Source: Candidatus Scalindua sp. SCAELEC01 (GTDB taxonomy: Bacteria; Planctomycetota; Brocadiia; Brocadiales; Scalinduaceae). Taken from it: 33,526 nt of DNA. Position numbers and translations under genes: made by a program. Shown piece by piece: positions 748-29,154 of this stretch; within the stretch, counting starts at the first letter, position 1; the number at the start of each line of letters is the position of its first letter. The stretch spans positions 1 to 33,526 of the forward strand of contig SHMT01000041.1 in the NCBI GenBank assembly GCA_004282745.1. Direction: 5' to 3'. The notes below the pieces were generated by a model. It was not told where the DNA came from, made no database searches, and was given only the letters and a program-made list of their open reading frames with translations.

Positions 748-1482
748 TTAGGGTGTTTCTTCTGTTTCCGGTGTTATAATGTCAAGCAATTCAACCGTAA
801 AAATTAGCGTCTGGCTAGGTCCAATAGTTGGTGGTGCATTAAAACCATACGCAAGCTCAGAAGGAATATACAATTCACTTTTCCCCCCCACTTTCATAAG
901 TTGCAAACCTTCAATCCAACCTTTAATCACTTGGTTTAGTCCAAATTCAGCTGGTTGATCACGCTTGTACGAACTGTCAAACTCTTTTCCATTAATCAAC
1001 GTACCGCGATAATGCACCTTAACAGTATCCGTCACCTTTGGGTTTGCACCACTTCCCTCAGTTATAACTTTATACTGTAAGCCTGATCCAGTCACTTTGA
1101 CGCCTGATTTATTTTTATTGGTTTCAAGAAAAGCTTTTCCCAATCTGATATTTTCATCGCTTGCCGTCTTTTGTGCTGCTTGAATCTTCTCTGCTGCCTT
1201 CTCTTGAAAGGAGGTCATTACAGAAGTTATCTCTTCCTGTGACATTGCCAATTCGCTTCCCTTTATGACATCATTCATACCTTTTACAAACAGTTCTTCA
1301 CTCACTTCAAGTTCATTCTGTTTAGAGAAACCTCCGATTTGAGTACCGATGATATAGCTCATTTTTTGGGACTCCGACCAATTTGCCGATGCACTTACCG
1401 GTGTAACCTCATCGTCCGCAGTAGCAATACCCGATAAAACAGACACCATTAAGGCTGATAATAAGACAATTTTTCGTATCAC
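748..1482 (-). CDS. Exported FKBP-type peptidyl-prolyl cis-trans isomerase (Mip/FkpA-like)
   Basis: A 244-residue prolyl isomerase expected in the periplasm or cell envelope. It has an N-terminal signal peptide (IRKIVLLSALMVSVLSGIATA), a helical FKBP_N dimerisation domain at roughly residues 30-130, and a C-terminal FKBP_C domain at about 140-235 with typical blocks VKVHYRGTLINGKEFDSS, VIKGWIEGLQLMKVGGK and IPSELAYG. This is the two-domain Mip/FkpA/FklB arrangement. The start is taken as GTG at 1482 rather than the GTG at 1500, because a strong AAGGAG lies between them with a 6-base spacer before the inner GTG, and the signal peptide then begins at the right place. It stands alone, convergent with the aminotransferase remnant. 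Confidence in the family is high; the substrate is unknown. Confidence 0.9.
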   Translation of the reverse strand: MIRKIVLLSALMVSVLSGIATADDEVTPVSASANWSESQKMSYIIGTQIGGFSKQNELEVSEELFVKGMNDVIKGSELAMSQEEITSVMTSFQEKAAEKIQAAQKTASDENIRLGKAFLETNKNKSGVKVTGSGLQYKVITEGSGANPKVTDTVKVHYRGTLINGKEFDSSYKRDQPAEFGLNQVIKGWIEGLQLMKVGGKSELYIPSELAYGFNAPPTIGPSQTLIFTVELLDIITPETEETP

Positions 1483-1488
1483 AATACA

Positions 1489-1494
1489 CTCCTT
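1489..1494 (-). promoter_or_regulatory. Ribosome binding site deciding the FKBP start
   Basis: AAGGAG on the minus strand, six bases before GTG 1482. It lies inside the longer open frame, which argues that the upstream GTG at 1500 is not the start. Confidence 0.7.
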
Positions 1495-1500
1495 ACGCAC

Positions 1501-1826
1501 ACAAGTTTTTTAAAATTAACCGGAATATCTCTTACTCCGATCTATAATTAGAACACAATATTACCATATTTCAATAATTATTTTGGATTTTAGTGAATGG
1601 TGTAAGCTAGGCAAACAGTCCCATAAACGAGATGCCAATACATACTGATTCACAAAAAGTGGATAAAGATAAATCCTGTTATAGGGGAAGCGTGCAAATT
1701 TGAGGACACGGGGCATTTCACAGACAAAACAAACACGTAAAAAGAGCAGCTATGCGTCATCAGCAAAGAGAGACACCGACTCGCTATGAACCAGAAAATT
1801 TCAAATCCAACCAAATAACGTTTATA
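1501..1826. other. Gene-free spacer
   Basis: This is the upstream region of the FKBP gene and the downstream flank of the GH13 gene. I see no gene, clear promoter, terminator or member of the repeat families described elsewhere. Confidence 0.5.
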
Positions 1827-3587
1827 TTAATCCTGCACAACTTGTTTTTCTTTGTACTCCTTCAACCAAACGATCTGATACGGTTCCAAAACAAACTTTT
1901 TACTACTAATTTTTGTATGAGTCAGGATATCAACTAAGGGGACCTCTACCTCATCTGGAAGAACTATTTCCACACACAGGCCATCAAAATTAAACAGTGC
2001 AAGTACCGACTCCTCGATTTCTTTTGCGTATCGTTTTATAGCAAACACCTTATTTCCCAAATCTAAAATCTCAAACTTATTTAATGGGTGAAAGGCCTCT
2101 TCATTTATTCTTATCGATAAGAGCTGTTTATACCTTTTGAAGAGAACCCTTTGTAAACTGCCCTCTTCCTCAAGAAGCTCCTTTAAATTATCATAATTTA
2201 ATTTATCCCTATTAATGGACCTATTGATCCTTGTTTTTCTTACCGCCTCATGATAGTTTTGCGAACCCACAAGTGAGTGGAAATAGATACCGGGGACACC
2301 GGGCATTACCAGTACCAAGGCTTGAGAGAGAATCATTCTCTTGACTCGAATGGTATCATCCTCCTTTGGATTTGTTAACAAATCAATATAACTGCAATTC
2401 AACTCATATGGAGACACTTCCTCGTCTCCAATTGCCCTGAATGAGACTAAGCCCCCATGCTCAATAGTTGATTGCACTAAAAAGTCCATCTCGGCTTCAT
2501 CTAAAATTTCATTTACGGCCCTTACACCAATACCATCATGGCTTGCCGTGAAGTTAAAAAAGCATACCCCGTCACTTGGGAGGGTTAACTCTTTTGCCCA
2601 TTGGGTAAGTTTTGTTGTATTAGATTTTAATATGGAAAATGCCAATAGAGGAGGGAGAGCGAAGTTATAAACCATTTGCGCCTCATCGTCTCCTGCCCCA
2701 AAATATGAAACATTTTCACCGTGAGGTACATTTGTTTCTGTAATAACCATGACTTCAGGTGCAACCGCATGCATAACTTCCCGCATAAGCTGAATCAACT
2801 CGTGAGTCTTTGGGTGATGAACACAGGGTGTTCCAAACTCTTTCCATATAAAGGCAATGGCATCGAGCCTTATCAGTGATGCACCCTTTTCAACATAAAA
2901 TAACAATACGTCTAATACCTTCAGCAACACTTTGTAATTAGCATAATTCAAATCTACCTGGTCATTGCCAAATGTTGTCCAAATGTTTCTAATTTTTCCC
3001 TCATCATCAACAAACTCAGTAAGAAGAGGTGAAGTTCGTGGTCTTACTACATTTGACAAATCGGTACTCGGATCAACATCAATGAAGAAATTTTCGAACT
3101 CGGGCGAATTTGCTAAATAACGATTAAACCATTTGCTTAATTTTGAGACATGATTAACGACACAATCAAACATTATCCTGTAATTTTTCCGAATCTCTTC
3201 TATATCTCTCCAGGAACCCTTAAGGGGACATACACCTTTATAGCGTACGATTGAAAAACCATCATCGGATGAGTACGGATAAAATGGTAATATATGGACA
3301 GAATTTATGACATCCTGCACATACTCGTTTAAAAACCTGCTTAAAGTAGCAAGTGCAGTCTCACCATGATGAAAAACCTGATCACCGTAGGTGATAAGTA
3401 TGATATCGTGTTGCGTTAAATAATAGGGGACACTTTTCACTTTCTGCTTGTATTTGTAGATTAAGGCAAGAACCTCCTCATACGCCTTAGCCGAATCCTC
3501 TGGAGAATAGACAAACTCTAAGGCCTCTTCTATAAGTTTTAACCTGTTTTCTGTCGTATGTCGTGTATAGTGCTCTTCATTAGCCAT
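1827..3587 (-). CDS. GH13 sugar phosphorylase (sucrose/glucosylglycerate phosphorylase-like, GH13_18)
   Basis: A 586-residue alpha-amylase-superfamily enzyme without signal peptide, so cytoplasmic. The GH13 catalytic triad is visible: nucleophile D242 in SLIRLDAIAF, acid/base E284 in VITETNVPHGENVSYFG, and transition-state Asp D351 in TASHDGIGVR; the early barrel motif FDCVVNHVS is at 140-148. The pattern RLDAIAFIWKEFGTPCVHHPKTH and the GENVSYFG block belong to the subfamily of sucrose phosphorylase and its relatives (sucrose-6-phosphate and glucosylglycerate phosphorylases, E. coli YcjM type). Such enzymes cleave an alpha-glucoside with phosphate to give glucose-1-phosphate. Length and the -FIWKEFG- signature favour the glucosylglycerate/YcjM branch over sucrose, but this is inference. 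The start ATG has an AGAGGA about 11 bases upstream. No operon partner is adjacent; a MITE copy lies 69 bp upstream. Confidence 0.88.
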   Translation of the reverse strand: MANEEHYTRHTTENRLKLIEEALEFVYSPEDSAKAYEEVLALIYKYKQKVKSVPYYLTQHDIILITYGDQVFHHGETALATLSRFLNEYVQDVINSVHILPFYPYSSDDGFSIVRYKGVCPLKGSWRDIEEIRKNYRIMFDCVVNHVSKLSKWFNRYLANSPEFENFFIDVDPSTDLSNVVRPRTSPLLTEFVDDEGKIRNIWTTFGNDQVDLNYANYKVLLKVLDVLLFYVEKGASLIRLDAIAFIWKEFGTPCVHHPKTHELIQLMREVMHAVAPEVMVITETNVPHGENVSYFGAGDDEAQMVYNFALPPLLAFSILKSNTTKLTQWAKELTLPSDGVCFFNFTASHDGIGVRAVNEILDEAEMDFLVQSTIEHGGLVSFRAIGDEEVSPYELNCSYIDLLTNPKEDDTIRVKRMILSQALVLVMPGVPGIYFHSLVGSQNYHEAVRKTRINRSINRDKLNYDNLKELLEEEGSLQRVLFKRYKQLLSIRINEEAFHPLNKFEILDLGNKVFAIKRYAKEIEESVLALFNFDGLCVEIVLPDEVEVPLVDILTHTKISSKKFVLEPYQIVWLKEYKEKQVVQD

Positions 3588-3655
3588 AACGTTACCAGTC
3601 CTCTAATACTATTTAACCAACACCCTTTGCAGGTTAGTTTTTGGAACAGATATAT

Positions 3656-3802
3656 AGTGTCTGAACGAAAACCCAGTGTTTGAATGAAAAGTGCCCAGGT
3701 ACAAGGCGCGTAATAATTTCGTAACCGGAACGTACAATTGTACTTGAGGATTGCGAAATTATTGCAGCAACACAGTAGATGGGTAGTTTTTGTTCAAACA
3801 CT
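3656..3802 (+). mobile_element. 147-bp MITE, copy 1
   Basis: A non-coding element with terminal inverted repeats AGTGTCTGAACGAAAAC / GTTTTTGTTCAAACACT. The interior is also self-complementary (AATAATTTCG ... CGAAATTATT) around the palindrome GTACAATTGTAC at 3732-3743, so one strand can fold into a long hairpin. Flanks are ATAT (3652-3655) and GTAT (3803-3806), an imperfect 4-bp duplication. Near-identical copies are at 6757-6903 and 14379-14525. Confidence 0.85.
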
Positions 3803-3932
3803 GTATAATAGTTATTTCATAAAATATTGTCAATAGTGAAATCTGAAAGGCTTGTAGGTTAGAGGGGCGCTTCGCTTGAGGCAGAAACAGAGGTGGTGGA
3901 GAAGGATCAACAATAATTGAGGGATTGAAATA

Positions 3933-4024
3933 TAAAGTGACTAAAGTTTAAAGTGAGCTAAAGTGACTAAAGTTTAAAGTGGGCTAAAGTGACTAAAGTT
4001 TAAAGTGAGCTAAAGTGACTAAAA
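3933..4024 (+). repeat. 26-bp tandem repeat, array A (family R2)
   Basis: Three full 26-bp units (3933-3958, 3959-3984, 3985-4010), each reading TAAAGTGACTAAAGTTTAAA followed by GTGRGC, then a partial fourth. The units differ by a single A/G. Flanks (a GGGATTGAAATA lead and a ATATATGCAAAGTG tail) are shared with the array at 17602, so the repeat family is larger than the tandem core. No spacers, so not CRISPR. Confidence 0.85.
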
Positions 4025-4046
4025 ATATATGCAAAGTGGAGAAAGC

Positions 4047-4155
4047 CCCAGTTAAATATGCTACGAATTTAATCCAAGTTGAATAATTGGTTCAACCCCA
4101 GTACAGTCGTATCTCCTTACGGGGCACGCGGGACAAGTGGGGCAGGCACGAAGAA
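4047..4155 (+). repeat. Dispersed repeat R4, full-length copy
   Basis: It runs from CCCCAGTTAAATA through GTTGAATAATTGGTTCAAC (a 6-bp hairpin) to GGGACAAGTGGGGCAGGCAC. Related copies are at 17714-17919 (interrupted by R3 and internally deleted), 24652-24785, and reversed at 30788-30845. No coding potential seen. Confidence 0.7.
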
Positions 4156-4267
4156 AAGTGCCTATAGTGCAGAGAGCAAATAGGTAGTTACTGTGCTGAT
4201 TCGCAAATTCGTGAAGAATGACAAACTTTATTTGGAGTCACAATTTCATATGATGATCTTTAAGTTA

Positions 4268-16155: not shown

Positions 16156-16184
16156 TACTAAAACCATTATGAGATGAGTGTATA
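16156..16184 (-). repeat. Deleted remnant of repeat R3
   Basis: The sequence joins the TATACTAAAACC end of R3 directly to its other end AACCATTATGAGATGAGT, as if the middle were lost. It falls in the leader of the polymerase/ligase gene. Confidence 0.5.
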
Positions 16185-16216
16185 ATCATTTTTTATGCTA
16201 CTCTTCACATGAGATC

Positions 16217-17506
16217 ATGACAGAACAAATTAGCAAAATACCCTGGCTCATTTTTATCTTTTTATCCATACTCTTCTTTTTCATTGAAGGTCATGAACTC
16301 ACTTTCTCCCTGCATGTAAATCAAGACATCTCCACGGATGATCTTATCACTATGGCAAGTGGTGAGGGGAGCCCTCTCAGAAGGATTTCACTTGCCCTAC
16401 TGGCTATCTCTTCCTCCCTTATTTTTCTCCTCAAAGGATTACAAAAGATTGAAATTAGCGGAATTCTCGGATGGTCTATGCTCCTCTTTATTTTGTGGTG
16501 TCTTACCTCAATTGCGTGGTCCACTGACGCACCACTTACTCTCAGACGCTTAATCGTTCTCCTTGCCATTTCTGTTTCCGGTTTTTTTCTATCACAACAA
16601 TATCCCGTAAAGAATCTGGTGTTTTTTGTCCTCGTCTCCTGTGGCCTCTATCTGATAACCGGAATATCCTGTGAGATCTATATGGGAACCTTTACCCCTT
16701 TTGCAGCCGATTACCGATTTTCAGGTACACATAACGCGAATATGCAGGGAGCTAACTGTGCTTTACTGCTTATTGCGGCAGCTTCTTTTTTTTTTACACG
16801 ATCGAACAACCGATACTACTATATATTAATAATGGTCTTTGCTCTGCTTGCCCTGTTTCTCACCAAATCCCGAACATCATTTTATTGCTCAATTTTGGCA
16901 GTCCTTATAATTTACATAGTTTCATCTCCCTTAAACTTAAAGAAACTGATCAGTTTGTTCGCATTTTTTGCCATTCTACTCGGCTTTGTTGTCATTATAA
17001 CGAACTCAAGTTCCATCAGCATGTCAGACACCTTTACAGCCCTGAACCTTGGAAGAGGTACAGAGAATGTTGAAACTTATACAGGTCGGACATTTATCTG
17101 GAAAATGTGTCTTAATTATATTGCAGAACGGCCATATTGCGGATATGGCTTCAATTGTTTCTGGAATGCTACACACATCTATGAATTGATCAGTACTCTC
17201 AATTGGCCGGTGAATAGTGCGCACTCACTCTACTTAAATCTTATGCTCAGTGTGGGATTGGTAGGAGCAATAATCTTTGTTGTCTTCCTCGTGTGGGGGA
17301 TACGGAATACTTTTGTGCTGTTTATGCGAACAGGTGAATCCGGATATCTTTTTTTATTTTCTCTCTTTGTTTTTTTCACTATTCATGGGATATTTGAAGG
17401 ATACCTCATAGAATTGGGGTACATTCCTTTTGTTTTTTTCTGGGGGCTCTGTTATTGCGGTTTTAGAAGGAAATCTGCTGTAGAACAAACACCCAAAATG
17501 AACTAA
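16217..17506 (+). CDS. O-antigen ligase / Wzy-type polymerase family membrane protein
   Basis: A 429-residue integral membrane protein of the Wzy/WaaL (PF04932) superfamily. It has about 11-12 hydrophobic segments and a large periplasmic loop around residues 265-330 (after FVVIITNSSS) carrying GRTFIWKMCLNYIAERPYCGYGFNCFW ... NSAHSLYLNLMLSVGLVG; the R and H of the RxxxW and HSLYLN parts match the conserved functional pattern of the family. It would polymerise flipped repeat units or ligate the chain to an acceptor; sequence does not separate the two. ATG 16217 is preferred over ATG 16178 because the longer lead is polar and unlike the family, and TEQISKIPW directly precedes the first membrane segment. 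It lies downstream of the flippase, a typical Wzx/Wzy pairing. Confidence 0.88.
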   Translation: MTEQISKIPWLIFIFLSILFFFIEGHELTFSLHVNQDISTDDLITMASGEGSPLRRISLALLAISSSLIFLLKGLQKIEISGILGWSMLLFILWCLTSIAWSTDAPLTLRRLIVLLAISVSGFFLSQQYPVKNLVFFVLVSCGLYLITGISCEIYMGTFTPFAADYRFSGTHNANMQGANCALLLIAAASFFFTRSNNRYYYILIMVFALLALFLTKSRTSFYCSILAVLIIYIVSSPLNLKKLISLFAFFAILLGFVVIITNSSSISMSDTFTALNLGRGTENVETYTGRTFIWKMCLNYIAERPYCGYGFNCFWNATHIYELISTLNWPVNSAHSLYLNLMLSVGLVGAIIFVVFLVWGIRNTFVLFMRTGESGYLFLFSLFVFFTIHGIFEGYLIELGYIPFVFFWGLCYCGFRRKSAVEQTPKMN

Positions 17507-23718: not shown

Positions 23719-24354
23719 TTAATATAAAATATCTATGACGGTAGCGATTATTAATTTCAGATAAACACGCACACCTTGTTTCTGTACCCACTCTAAATCC
23801 ATTTGAATCTGTTCTGCAACCGGCAACTCACGACTTGATATCTGCGCCCAACCGGTCAATCCCGGTAATACCTGAAAACGCTGCTTCCAACTTTCAGGAA
23901 AGCAATCTACTTCTGCCTGAATCAAGGGCCGCGGCCCTACCAGACTCATCTCACCTTTTAATACATTTATCAATTGCGGGATTTCGTCCACACTTCTACT
24001 AGACATCAATTTTCCAATACGAGTATAGGGATCATCGGTCCGCAACTGAATATTTGGCTCATCAAGGTCTGAAATATCGGGGGCATTAGCCTCGGCACCC
24101 TGATACATTGTCCTGAACTTATACATGGTAAAGGGAACATTATTAAGTCCAACCCTACGTTGAGCGAAAATAGCAGGACCCTTTGAATCAAGTCGGATTA
24201 GGATTAACAGTAAAAATAATAACGGGGAGAGTACCATTAACATTAAAAGTGATATAAAACAATCCAGACTCCGAATTAGAGTTGATTCAATTTTTGACAT
24301 CGATCGGGGCTCCACCTTCACAATATCAAGATTTTCAGAAATAACATAACTCAT
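23719..24354 (-). CDS. Undecaprenyl-phosphate sugar phosphotransferase (monotopic phosphoglycosyl transferase)
   Basis: A 211-residue small-monoPGT that transfers a sugar-1-phosphate to undecaprenyl phosphate and so starts the repeat unit. A single re-entrant membrane helix ([25 protein letters not shown], with the Ser-Pro kink at 43-44) precedes the catalytic domain with [25 protein letters not shown], the essential Asp-Glu dyad in SVDEIPQ (D123, E124) and the [11 protein letters not shown] block followed by PGLTGWAQI. Length matches the short PglC/WcaJ-C form. ATG 24354 has GGAGG nine bases upstream. Convergent with the deacetylase-like gene. A downstream product sugar cannot be assigned. 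Confidence 0.94.
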
Positions 24355-25187: not shown

Positions 25188-27857
25188 TTAGTTATTTTTA
25201 TAATAATTACCGTAGTTGTCCTTACCCGGCATAACCTGATTGAGGATGGTACCAATCACATTTATGCCTGACTCGTTTAACATACTCTTTGCTTCGTTCA
25301 CCTGTTTGACAGAAACTTTCCCCGATTTAACGACAAAGATTACGCCGTCAACCATGCGAAGTAGAGGTTTTACAATACCACCCGTATTCAGTAACGGTGG
25401 GGCATCTATCAATACAACATCATAGCGTTGTTTCAGGATATCCAGAAGCTTCTCAACAAGTGCATAATAAACCGGTCCCTCCACCTTCTGATCATTTTCC
25501 AGGCCGGCAGGTATGATTGACAGATTGGGTTCATCAAGGGATTTCACGTTTGAGAGTATTTCACTCGCCAGAAAACGGCTCTCCAACCTGCGGCCTAAAC
25601 GCTTGATGACGGGAGCATAATTTTCCTGGAAATGTATCTTCTTGTCCTCATACAGTTCTAAATCGCCCTGTTCAAAAGAGTAGGTACCCTGGTTCCAGCT
25701 GAAGAGCATTTGAAGATGCTCTTCCATCTGCAATTTCAAAGGTCCCTGTAACTGGTCCTGATTGATATACCCCAAATTGACTAGGATATACCCTAAAGGT
25801 TGTTCTGCTCGCTGGCTTCTCTCCAGGGCATCTTTGAGTTGTTCTTCCGTAATAAGGTCAGCACGCAGAAGCGTTGTTCCAAGTCGATTGGCAGGTGGAG
25901 CATCTTTATTCATGATATGAAAGAGTTGTCCGTTTTTAAAGATAGCCGCCATAGTCTGAGAATCATTACTGACTACAAGCTGTCCACTGAGACTCTTTAA
26001 TGAAATGAGATAAAAGAGATCATCCAAACTGCATTTCTCCAAATTCCCACTCAGTATATCCATTGAAACAATACCTCTCATAATATTTAGTAGCCCAATA
26101 TCAACGGAATCCGTCACACCAAACATGCTGTGCAGGGTAGACCTCTGATGGTCAGTATCAACCATGACCACACGAAGCCCCCCCCTTGCCAGACTTACGG
26201 CTGATTTTGCCACAACCGTAGATTTCCCGTCACCGGGTAACGTACTCTCGATGAGGAGTGTCTGGCCGTCCATCCCGGAACGTTTAACAGGAAACCCACT
26301 AATGAGGCTACTTGAGGTATTATAATAATAGCCCTCTCTGTCGCTTACATCGCCCTGCTCTGTCTCATTCGATGCAAGGGCCAGCCGCTTATTCTGTGTC
26401 AAGGCTTGATCATAAGGCAACATCCCAACAACCTGCAATCCCAGACGACTGGCAACATCTTCAGGGGTTCTCACAGACCTGTCCACGTACTCAATAAAAA
26501 AAGCGAGCCCCACGCCACACACGAATCCCAATGCCACAGCAATACTTATATTCACAGCTTTTTTCGGCCTTATCGGATAACGTGGTAAAACAGCTTTATC
26601 CGCAACGCTGATATTGCTCCTCTTCGTATTACTCAGAACACTTTTCTCATTGGATTGGAGTAACAGAGAATCATAAATCTGTTTATCACTCTCTCGCTGA
26701 CGTATCAACTCATTGTACTCAACGCTTAGCTCACCATAATTTTTGGCAACCTTTTCAAGCTCTTCAAGTTCCTTTTTAATGCTATTTTTAGAGGAAACCA
26801 ACCTATTCATTTCTGACTTGATTGCACCCCTTACCCTCTTCACCTCATCAAATATTTCCTGTTCAAGATTTTTGATTCTGGCATTAATATCGATCATCTC
26901 AGGATGTTTATATCCATAGAGAGAATCCAGTCGCATTCTCTCTGTCTTCAACTCGACCAGATGGTTTCGAAGCTTATCAATAATAGTATTTTGTTCAATC
27001 TCCGGTAGAAAAAGGTACTCCTCTTTATCGAGCGAAAAATTCTCAAGTTGATCATATGTTGCCTGTTTCTTTAATCGATCTGTGTCAATCTGGAAGATCA
27101 TAGCGTTCAGTTCATCCAGTTTATTTGATACGGTATTCTCGTCTTCTTTGAAGTAGAGCAAGCTATGTGCTTCCTGATACTTGACCACTGCCCTTTCAGA
27201 TTCCTGCAATTTGATTCTCTGTTCCTCCAGTTGTGTATCGAGCCATCCTATGGCCTGCTTATATTCCTGACTCTGTTTCTGAATGCTCCGTGCTATAAAT
27301 ACACCGGCATGGGTATTGGCAACAAGAACAGCTATTTCAGGATAGGGGCTTGAGAAGCTTATACTGATTAGTTGGCTACCCATATCCTGTTCAACCTTGA
27401 GGTTTGACAGATACCAATCAAACAGATCAGGCATATCCCAATGAACCATCTCGAACAAATGAGAGGTGGACATCACCATATCCCGCTCCCCTCCCTCCAC
27501 GGCAGCACGATCCCTCCCCAACCCCAGCTCCTTGATAACATCGTTTATCAGGCTGTGACTCTCCAGTAACCTGGATTGGGTTTGATAGTACTCCTGCGTC
27601 ATCTCTCCCCGTGACATAACGCCCTCAATTGTATGTTCATTTGAGTACTGTTTTCCTATTAACAGATTTGTCTTTGCCTCATATATGGGTGTAGTTATAA
27701 AATTCTTAACGGTAACGATAGCAACCACTGCCACAAAAATAGCGATGGCCCACCATTTACGTTTCCAGATAATATTTAAACAGTCCGACAGATGCAGCGT
27801 CTGCTGTGACATGAGCATCGAATCAGGAACAAATTCTGAGTTTTTATTTTGATTCAT
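25188..27857 (-). CDS. Wzc-type polysaccharide co-polymerase/tyrosine kinase with inserted DUF4388 (PATAN) module
   Basis: An 889-residue inner-membrane protein. Residues 33-53 are the first membrane helix, 60-435 the periplasmic Wzz/GNVR part with long coiled coils (about 195-395), and 436-455 the second helix. The cytoplasmic BY-kinase domain has Walker A at 538-547 (STLPGDGKST), Walker A' VMVDTDHQRSTL (564-575) and Walker B YDVVLIDAPPLL (812-823), with YGNYY at the C terminus as possible phosphorylation tail. Between A' and B, normally about 50-60 residues apart before NLSVLPAG, sit about 170 extra residues (roughly 600-770): SGNLEKCSLDDLFYLISLKSLSGQLVVS ... AAIFKNGQLFHIM, then LITEEQLKDALERSQRAEQPLGYILVNLGYINQDQL and a final LFSWNQGTYSFE, the pattern of DUF4388/PATAN domains. 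ATG 27857 has AAAGGTG six bases upstream. wza lies 117 bases upstream on the same strand. Family calls are firm; regulation by the insert is inference. Confidence 0.9.
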   Translation of the reverse strand: MNQNKNSEFVPDSMLMSQQTLHLSDCLNIIWKRKWWAIAIFVAVVAIVTVKNFITTPIYEAKTNLLIGKQYSNEHTIEGVMSRGEMTQEYYQTQSRLLESHSLINDVIKELGLGRDRAAVEGGERDMVMSTSHLFEMVHWDMPDLFDWYLSNLKVEQDMGSQLISISFSSPYPEIAVLVANTHAGVFIARSIQKQSQEYKQAIGWLDTQLEEQRIKLQESERAVVKYQEAHSLLYFKEDENTVSNKLDELNAMIFQIDTDRLKKQATYDQLENFSLDKEEYLFLPEIEQNTIIDKLRNHLVELKTERMRLDSLYGYKHPEMIDINARIKNLEQEIFDEVKRVRGAIKSEMNRLVSSKNSIKKELEELEKVAKNYGELSVEYNELIRQRESDKQIYDSLLLQSNEKSVLSNTKRSNISVADKAVLPRYPIRPKKAVNISIAVALGFVCGVGLAFFIEYVDRSVRTPEDVASRLGLQVVGMLPYDQALTQNKRLALASNETEQGDVSDREGYYYNTSSSLISGFPVKRSGMDGQTLLIESTLPGDGKSTVVAKSAVSLARGGLRVVMVDTDHQRSTLHSMFGVTDSVDIGLLNIMRGIVSMDILSGNLEKCSLDDLFYLISLKSLSGQLVVSNDSQTMAAIFKNGQLFHIMNKDAPPANRLGTTLLRADLITEEQLKDALERSQRAEQPLGYILVNLGYINQDQLQGPLKLQMEEHLQMLFSWNQGTYSFEQGDLELYEDKKIHFQENYAPVIKRLGRRLESRFLASEILSNVKSLDEPNLSIIPAGLENDQKVEGPVYYALVEKLLDILKQRYDVVLIDAPPLLNTGGIVKPLLRMVDGVIFVVKSGKVSVKQVNEAKSMLNESGINVIGTILNQVMPGKDNYGNYYKNN

Positions 27858-27974: not shown

Positions 27975-28844
27975 TTAAAAACGGCGTTCAGGGACTTCTA
28001 TAACATCATTGGGTTTGACAATATCATGCATCTTTGCCTTTATTTTCTTTTCCTTTCCATTTATTGTACGAATAATTTTCACACGCTTTTGAGCTGCCAA
28101 TTCGGTAAAACCTCCTGAAAGGGTGATTGCCTGGCGGACAGTCATACCCCTTTCCCAGTCAAGCTTACCCTTTGTCCCTACATGCCCTGATACAAAGATA
28201 ACTTGTTTTTCGTTTACGTAAATATAATCCTCACTATTGATTATGAAAGAAGAAGATTTGCTGTTATGTCCATACTGACCCAGGTCTATAGTAAAAATAA
28301 TGTTCTCTTCATCCTCTTCATGAGGGAACCCCACTCTGGCTCCCGACGAGGTTTTAGATCGAACGATTGTAACCGTTCGTCCCGCCTCACTTGTAAATCC
28401 GCCAGCCTTTGATATTAACTCCAGGATATGGCTTCTCCCTCTTACGTTATAAATTCCCGGCTCTCTCACATGGCCTAGAATGAAAACTTTCTTGGACTTA
28501 TAATTTTCGACAGTAACCGTAACTTGAGGTGATTTTATGAAACCATCTGAAAGTCTCCTCTTAAGGAGCTCTTCCAGCTGGAAGATTGAGAGACCTTCCG
28601 CTTTAACGGCACCGATATGGGGATAGGTAAATTCCCCTCCCTCAGGGACCTCGATCGTTCGCGTCAGATTCTCATGATTCCAGATCTCAATTTTAATAAC
28701 ATCTTCGGGACCTAAAACATATTTCTTTTTAATCTGCTCCTTGTCAAAAGGATCTTGGGCAAGAAGGCTGGAAGATATCGCACCCAAAACCCCGGTGATG
28801 CAGGAGACGATGAATAGAAATCGAAATAAACAGATACATCTCAT
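27975..28844 (-). CDS. Wza-family polysaccharide export protein (SLBB domains)
   Basis: A 289-residue periplasmic/outer-membrane export component. The N-terminal signal sequence (RCICLFRFLFIVSCITGVLGAISSSLLAQ) lacks a clear lipobox after removal of the short lead. The polysaccharide export (PES) domain starts YVLGPEDVIKIEIWNHENLTRTIEVPEGGEFTYPHIGAVKAEGLS; two SLBB units follow, KVFILGHVREPGIYNVRGRSHILELISKAGGF and VIFVSGHVGTKGKLDWERGMTVRQAITLSGGF, each with the GxV...PG/G...I..AGG pattern. The start is ATG 28844: GGAAGGAG lies 8 bases upstream, so an earlier TTG at 28862 is excluded. It is upstream of, and transcribed with, the kinase-like co-polymerase, the usual Wza-Wzc order. Confidence 0.92.
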   Translation of the reverse strand: MRCICLFRFLFIVSCITGVLGAISSSLLAQDPFDKEQIKKKYVLGPEDVIKIEIWNHENLTRTIEVPEGGEFTYPHIGAVKAEGLSIFQLEELLKRRLSDGFIKSPQVTVTVENYKSKKVFILGHVREPGIYNVRGRSHILELISKAGGFTSEAGRTVTIVRSKTSSGARVGFPHEEDEENIIFTIDLGQYGHNSKSSSFIINSEDYIYVNEKQVIFVSGHVGTKGKLDWERGMTVRQAITLSGGFTELAAQKRVKIIRTINGKEKKIKAKMHDIVKPNDVIEVPERRF

Positions 28845-28852
28845 AAAAAAGA

Positions 28853-28860
28853 CTCCTTCC
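28853..28860 (-). promoter_or_regulatory. Ribosome binding site deciding the wza-like start
   Basis: GGAAGGAG, eight bases before ATG 28844 on the minus strand. Confidence 0.75.
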
Positions 28861-29154
28861 AAAAAAACATTACTCTTTTGTCAGAACAAACCAAACCGGA
28901 CATTTATACCAATTACGAATGGGTATACACAAAAAAGTGCCCCCCCCCACATATGCTTCACTTCATACCTGTGGTCTGGCCTGAAATACCTAAAACCACT
29001 TTGCAATGGGTATGAAGACTTAAGTGTGTCGAACAAGTGATTGAACGAGAATCACCTGAATATTGCATTACTGTAAAAGTTTGCCCGTTATTTTACCTGA
29101 TCAACCTACAACATTCAATTATCAATATCCTCCATATTGTGGGTATCACTATTT

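Follow-up and report, generated by a model that had tools for sequence, protein, structure and literature searches.

A Wzc-like polysaccharide co-polymerase with a predicted c-di-GMP receptor nested in its kinase domain in Candidatus Scalindua and other bacteria

Our data point toward a Wzc kinase with a built-in predicted c-di-GMP receptor that probably gates polymer synthesis and export. The protein is encoded in a stretch of 33,526 nucleotides (the window), positions 1 to 33,526 of contig SHMT01000041.1 of Candidatus Scalindua sp. SCAELEC01. Its cytosolic part has the order kinase, DUF4388, MshEN, DUF4388, kinase, since the DUF4388 flanks the MshEN domain on both sides, and the nesting is kinase[DUF4388[MshEN]]. 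The reading as a gated co-polymerase, which we regard as the best overall explanation, builds on this nesting, the predicted fold, its conservation, the grouping of all insert-bearing proteins in a single clade, the linkage to an OPX gene, and the c-di-GMP enzymes of the genome, all established in this analysis.

The open reading frame (25188 to 27857, minus strand) encodes 889 residues and is present as a preliminary description, made from the letters alone, had given it, with coordinates and motifs correct. The Wzz-GNVR part claimed there was borne out by a Pfam Wzz chain-length domain (PF02706, E = 7.7e-10; residues 21-111, minus strand, 27525 to 27797) and a GNVR region preceding TM2 (PF13807, E = 1.6e-12; residues 384-454, minus strand, 26496 to 26708), and the P-loop region gave split Pfam matches (CbiA/AAA_31). 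The top PDB sequence match of the protein is Wzc of E. coli K30 (3.4e-25), and Pfam, PDB sequences, and Foldseek all identify it as a Wzc-type PCP-2a BY-kinase, with Wzz/GNVR and a P-loop kinase fused in one protein. Walker A (STLPGDGKST; residues 538-547, 26217 to 26246), Walker A′ (VVMVDTDHQR; residues 563-572, 26142 to 26171), and Walker B (VVLIDAPP; residues 814-821, 25395 to 25418), all on the minus strand, lie at about the positions described earlier. All three had been called intact, which holds for A, B, and both aspartates of A′ but not for the arginine of DxDxR, which is replaced by glutamine. Despite this loss, the protein remains a Wzc homologue; tyrosine kinase activity is not claimed. 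A short C-terminal tyrosine segment (NYGNYYKNN; minus strand, 25191 to 25220) is reduced or absent in relatives. AlphaFold2 modeled the cytosolic part with a pLDDT of 79.7 and a pTM of 0.77, and Foldseek aligned this model with CapAB, Wzc, BceF, and VpsO over about 350 columns, the targets having 203 to 260 residues and the insert being surplus. In the predicted model, the BY-kinase core is retained, and the insert is an extra segment compared to the crystal structures of Wzc, CapAB, and VpsO.

The insertion of about 150 residues is located between Walker A′ and Walker B. Indeed, the long gap after Walker A′ that had been noticed before was confirmed: Walker A and B are 277 residues apart in the window copy and 274 to 285 in insert-bearing relatives, compared to 106 to 124 in canonical Wzc of Brocadiales, including one protein of the same genome (L073/L105); at the insert-bearing locus L088 the spacing is 276 residues. 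That the insert belongs to the kinase core is ruled out by insert-free canonical relatives, which align on both flanks. The inserted module (residues 599-768; minus strand, 25554 to 26063) was predicted by AlphaFold2 to fold as a unit of its own, with a pLDDT of 82.9 when modeled alone, beside the retained kinase core, as the preliminary description had expected. Within it, residues 603-734 (minus strand, 25656 to 26051) match DUF4388/PATAN (Pfam PF14332, E = 7.2e-21) with 74.9 bits against a gathering cut-off of 25, covering profile positions 1-98 of 122. The label DUF4388 was therefore correctly assigned before, but it was incomplete: the MshEN domain inside had been missed, and its NCBIfam match rules out DUF4388 as the entire content of the insert. 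Among PDB structures, the DUF4388 part gave nothing beyond partial, low-probability matches to gyrase/MutL, which are meaningless.

The MshEN-type c-di-GMP motif occupies residues 658-710 within the DUF4388 (minus strand, 25728 to 25886; NCBIfam NF053729, E = 7.5e-13). The NCBIfam match spans residues 658-705 and, at 48.1 bits, exceeds the curated cut-off of 38. The motif reads RLGTTLLRADLITEEQLKDALERS-QRAEQ-PLGYILVNLGYINQDQLQGPLKLQ, a 24+5+24 layout identical to that of MshE, in whose published structure the motif consists of two 24-residue repeats and a 5-residue linker. A profile of the insert matched the PDB sequences of PilF (4e-17) and MshE (2e-7), and the NCBIfam motif sits at the equal position in all four paralogues of the genome. 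When the cytosolic region was shuffled 200,000 times, the relaxed double motif never appeared, which together with the conservation in 15 sequences rules out a chance motif; nor is the insertion itself a chance event, since it recurs in 14 further loci and three paralogues. The published relaxed MshEN motif holds in 11 of the 15 sequences and fails in the window copy because the G18 turn is an aspartate there. The AlphaFold2 model of the insert had as top Foldseek matches c-di-GMP-bound PilF GSPII-B (9glg, 8pdk, 8pkz, and 8pfa) and MshE (5htl), with an rmsd of 1.0 to 1.2 Å over 52 to 53 residues and a probability of 1.00; the E value of about 0.1 reflects the shortness of the motif. In the comparison for an MshEN fold, the predicted model lies within about 1.0 to 1.2 Å of 5htl and 8pdk. 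The earlier idea of a nested sensor is thus plausible as far as a regulatory role is concerned, but since the module is a DUF4388 with an MshEN c-di-GMP-binding fold, the better-supported input is a second messenger and not an unknown bound partner.

Conservation is in line with such a role. Mean pairwise identity among the 15 sequences is 52% in the N-terminal kinase part, 63% in the insert, 77% in MshEN, and 48% in the C-terminal kinase part, and judged from these alignments MshEN is the best-conserved portion of the cytosolic part. R9, G11, G40, G47, L54, and Q61 (MshE numbering) are invariant, and each of L10, L25, L29, L39, and L58 is conserved in 14 of the 15 sequences; R9, L10, G11, L25, L29, L39, G40, L54, L58, and Q61, which contact c-di-GMP in MshE, are therefore kept in 14 to 15 of the 15. 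The positions that deviate are Q32 (Asn in 13 of 15, Ser in the window copy) and R38 (Pro in all 15), so that of the MshE contacts R9, L10, G11, L25, L29, Q32 / R38, L39, G40, L54, L58, and Q61, the window copy keeps all except these two. In PilF GSPII-C, R38→P is the only deviation, and c-di-GMP binding at about 500 nM has been attributed to that domain. At six positions where 12 or more of the 15 sequences agree (13, 17, 18, 32, 35, and 36, with G18→D among them), the window copy has a residue other than the consensus, and its affinity for c-di-GMP may therefore be lower; it may bind the messenger more weakly. A Gly-Pro inside the last MshEN helix (L54-x-G-P-L58) counts against the best explanation, and XpsE is an example of an MshEN domain that has lost c-di-GMP binding. 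Taken at the level of the family, the nested MshEN likely binds c-di-GMP; for the window copy, binding is favored on balance.

The last MshEN helix is predicted to extend into the DUF4388 as LQGPLKLQMEEHLQMLFSW (residues 703-721; minus strand, 25695 to 25751; from model and conservation), and this stretch lies in the 20-column block with the highest conservation (0.93) anywhere in the cytosolic part. The peak falls in the segment LQGPLKLQMEEHLQMLFSWN, which leads from this helix into the DUF4388 and is likely the coupling element. The same finding, that the top-conserved block is the helix linking MshEN to DUF4388, would also suit a docking or adaptor platform for a protein partner in which c-di-GMP binding has been lost. 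DUF4388/PATAN is indeed regarded as an adaptor, and Q32 and R38 depart from the MshE consensus. However, the pocket residues are better conserved than the remaining insert and the kinase, R38→P is tolerated in the c-di-GMP-binding PilF GSPII-C, and the genome has retained c-di-GMP synthesis; we therefore consider a mere docking function unlikely.

What the kinase has lost allows another reading. About half of the octamer interface of known BY-kinases comes from EX2RX2R and about half from the tyrosine cluster, and Wzc is accepted to be controlled by cycling of the octamer through phosphorylation of the tail. Compared to canonical Wzc, one of them from the same genome, the insert clade has no EX2RX2R ahead of the P-loop (the position reads EGYYYNTSSSLISGF in the window protein and ESYRALR in the canonical same-genome Wzc), the A′ arginine is mostly replaced, and 0 to 5 terminal tyrosines are left. 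The canonical same-genome protein has DGDLRKP as Walker A′, the window protein has Gln for Arg, and nearly all insert-bearing relatives have other residues. It is imaginable that the proteins of the clade act as scaffolds without need of tyrosine phosphorylation, similar to the pseudokinase EcpK, and that their insert is mainly structural and stands in for the octamer interface that EX2RX2R and the Y-cluster build in known BY-kinases. These losses fit that proposal, and pseudokinase co-polymerases are known, so that control without phosphorylation exists. Unlike in EcpK, however, the Walker A lysine, both A′ aspartates, and the Walker B aspartate are strictly kept throughout the clade; most members retain a few terminal tyrosines, with three in the tail of the window protein; and a purely structural insert would have no need of a conserved ligand pocket. 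This reading is thus distinctly improbable, although the ideas of a scaffold and of a receptor are compatible. The genome has a single gene for an LMW phosphatase, which lies outside the window.

The architecture is not unique to the window protein but marks a clade of which this genome has four members: all four DUF4388 matches of the 4.59-Mb genome are in Wzc-like open frames of 887 to 920 residues. A scan of our collection, in answer to the proposal to search other genomes, found 14 more loci in Jettenia, Scalindua, Brocadia, Anammoxibacter, Loosdrechtia, and MAGs labeled Proteobacteria, Deferribacteres, Desulfobacterales, and Nitrospirae. The full module is present in 14 of 62 Brocadiales genomes (19 genes), and the open frames of the Brocadiales carriers always have about 840 to 920 residues (13 fetched loci checked). 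Outside Brocadiales, a kinase-plus-insert profile had no match at E ≤ 1e-60 in 294 sampled genomes of Planctomycetota. In an unrooted tree of the kinase columns without the insert, all proteins with the insert fall into a single clade (UFBoot 100) in which the Brocadiales members cluster with a support of 95. The genes at L005 and L006 each pair with one of two Scalindua sp. genes (support of 100 each), and the paralogues are therefore older than that species split. That the insert is neutral or decaying and simply tolerated in a loop, for which the six unusual MshEN residues of the window copy could be cited, is hardly credible given its presence in Brocadiales and in MAGs of four other labels, the four paralogues, and the conservation of MshEN above the kinase.

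The genomic surroundings are those of a polysaccharide locus. Directly upstream of the kinase lies a gene for an OPX (Wza-like) export protein (27975 to 28862, minus strand; Pfam Poly_export/SLBB), and the same arrangement was found in 14 of 18 loci with an insert kinase. Nearby are an initiating bacterial sugar transferase (23719 to 24354, minus strand; PF02397, 1.2e-53), a Wzy_C/O-antigen ligase-type protein (16178 to 17506, plus strand; PF04932, 3.2e-20), a glycosyltransferase, a UDP-GlcNAc 2-epimerase, and a polysaccharide deacetylase. In Candidatus Brocadia pituitae, a transposase-like open frame (IS4-like by eye; L016, 4041-6173, plus strand) occupies the OPX position upstream of the nested-receptor Wzc, and the paralogue at L006 is preceded by an OPX gene (2892-3906, plus strand) that is broken into two reading frames by a frameshift or an assembly error.

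The genome encodes 10 GGDEF proteins and has 15 MshEN matches. At another nested-receptor locus (L007; contig C23, 120000-136000), a protein that resembles WecA/undecaprenyl-phosphate sugar transferases and has a PilZ domain at its C terminus (2832-4265, plus strand) is encoded two genes upstream of the Wzc and is a possible second c-di-GMP input into that polysaccharide locus; a STAS-PilZ protein (967-1776, plus strand) is encoded nearby. Elsewhere (contig C78, 5418-8293), a GGDEF protein directly precedes two MshEN-bearing proteins of 573 to 580 residues, the size of PilB/GspE ATPases, and these genes likely form a local c-di-GMP circuit.

In our model, some of the ten GGDEF proteins would make c-di-GMP, which, as its level rises, would be bound by the four-helix bundle of the nested MshEN. 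The conserved last helix (LQGPLKLQMEEHLQ-LFSW) may relay the change via the DUF4388 to the nucleotide-binding core, and the Wzc ring would be shifted between assembled and disassembled states or altered in its nucleotide cycling. Such a switch of the ring would gate Wzy polymerization and export through the adjoining OPX protein. We infer that in Wzc of the window type, assembly or the ATPase cycle is gated by c-di-GMP and not chiefly by phosphorylation of tyrosines, and that the nested receptor would control chain length or kinase cycling, as had been suggested for a sensor at this place. Coupling of c-di-GMP binding to Wzc assembly appears somewhat more probable than its absence; if the two are coupled, our guess, drawn from analogy, is that the effect would quite likely be an activation. 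More tentatively, this may be a clade in which c-di-GMP took over control from tyrosine phosphorylation: the nested receptor might substitute for the lost interface of EX2RX2R and tyrosine tail and act as an allosteric switch of octamer assembly around Wzy, and hence of polymer synthesis, with little or no phosphotyrosine cycle.

The window protein shares with the PCP-2a BY-kinases Wzc, Etk, and VpsO the Wzz-GNVR periplasmic part, two TM, the C-terminal P-loop kinase fold, Walker A/B, and an OPX partner gene; the insert clade differs by the additional DUF4388[MshEN] of about 150 residues, the lack of EX2RX2R, the mostly lost A′ arginine, and a short or missing tyrosine tail. With the MshEN of MshE, PilB, PilF GSPII-B/-C, and NfrB it shares the 53-residue double motif, its spacing, the fold, and most pocket residues. 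In MshE-type traffic ATPases, however, MshEN is N-terminal, whereas here it is nested in a DUF4388 in a kinase, with Q32→N/S and R38→P and without an MshEN_C subdomain. An MshEN joined to a BY-kinase is already known: EpsG (TIGR03029), an EPS chain-length tyrosine kinase, has both in a single polypeptide, and model positions 4-60 of TIGR03029 match MshEN segments. But in EpsG, MshEN is N-terminal to the kinase and without DUF4388, whereas ours is nested in a full-length Wzc, which scores 48.6 bits with TIGR03029, below the equivalog cut-off of 313.8. The main text of the MshEN paper refers to an exopolysaccharide protein of Methylobacillus but does not name it. EcpK/EpsV pseudokinase co-polymerases likewise depart from the standard phosphotyrosine cycle, but EcpK is a separate protein without any Walker motif, whereas the insert clade keeps Walker A/B and is fused. 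The literature searched, which did not extend to subscription papers and preprints, contained neither a DUF4388-embedded MshEN in a full-length Wzc with EX2RX2R loss nor a link of an MshEN receptor to a Wzc co-polymerase.

The DUF4388[MshEN] composite itself is common in Planctomycetota, and the special feature is therefore its placement in a kinase: ten sampled long DUF4388 domains of the phylum hold an MshEN match inside, whereas the kinase-nested form is absent from the genomes sampled outside Brocadiales. Planctomycetota DUF4388 domains often have the nested motif (L024 to L053), and the "domain of unknown function" DUF4388 of Pfam may, judged by sequence, be a c-di-GMP receptor in many cases.

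If our model is true, the nested receptor joins c-di-GMP, the main signal for sessility, to Wzx/Wzy polymer length and export within one protein, and a Wzc ring can do without the usual tyrosine ratchet. Anammox bacteria, which rely on extracellular polymers for their granules and biofilms, make up many of the carriers of the nested-receptor Wzc, and the protein is therefore a concrete target for the control of granulation. Slime production would, as predicted, be under direct control of the biofilm signal c-di-GMP at the export machine.
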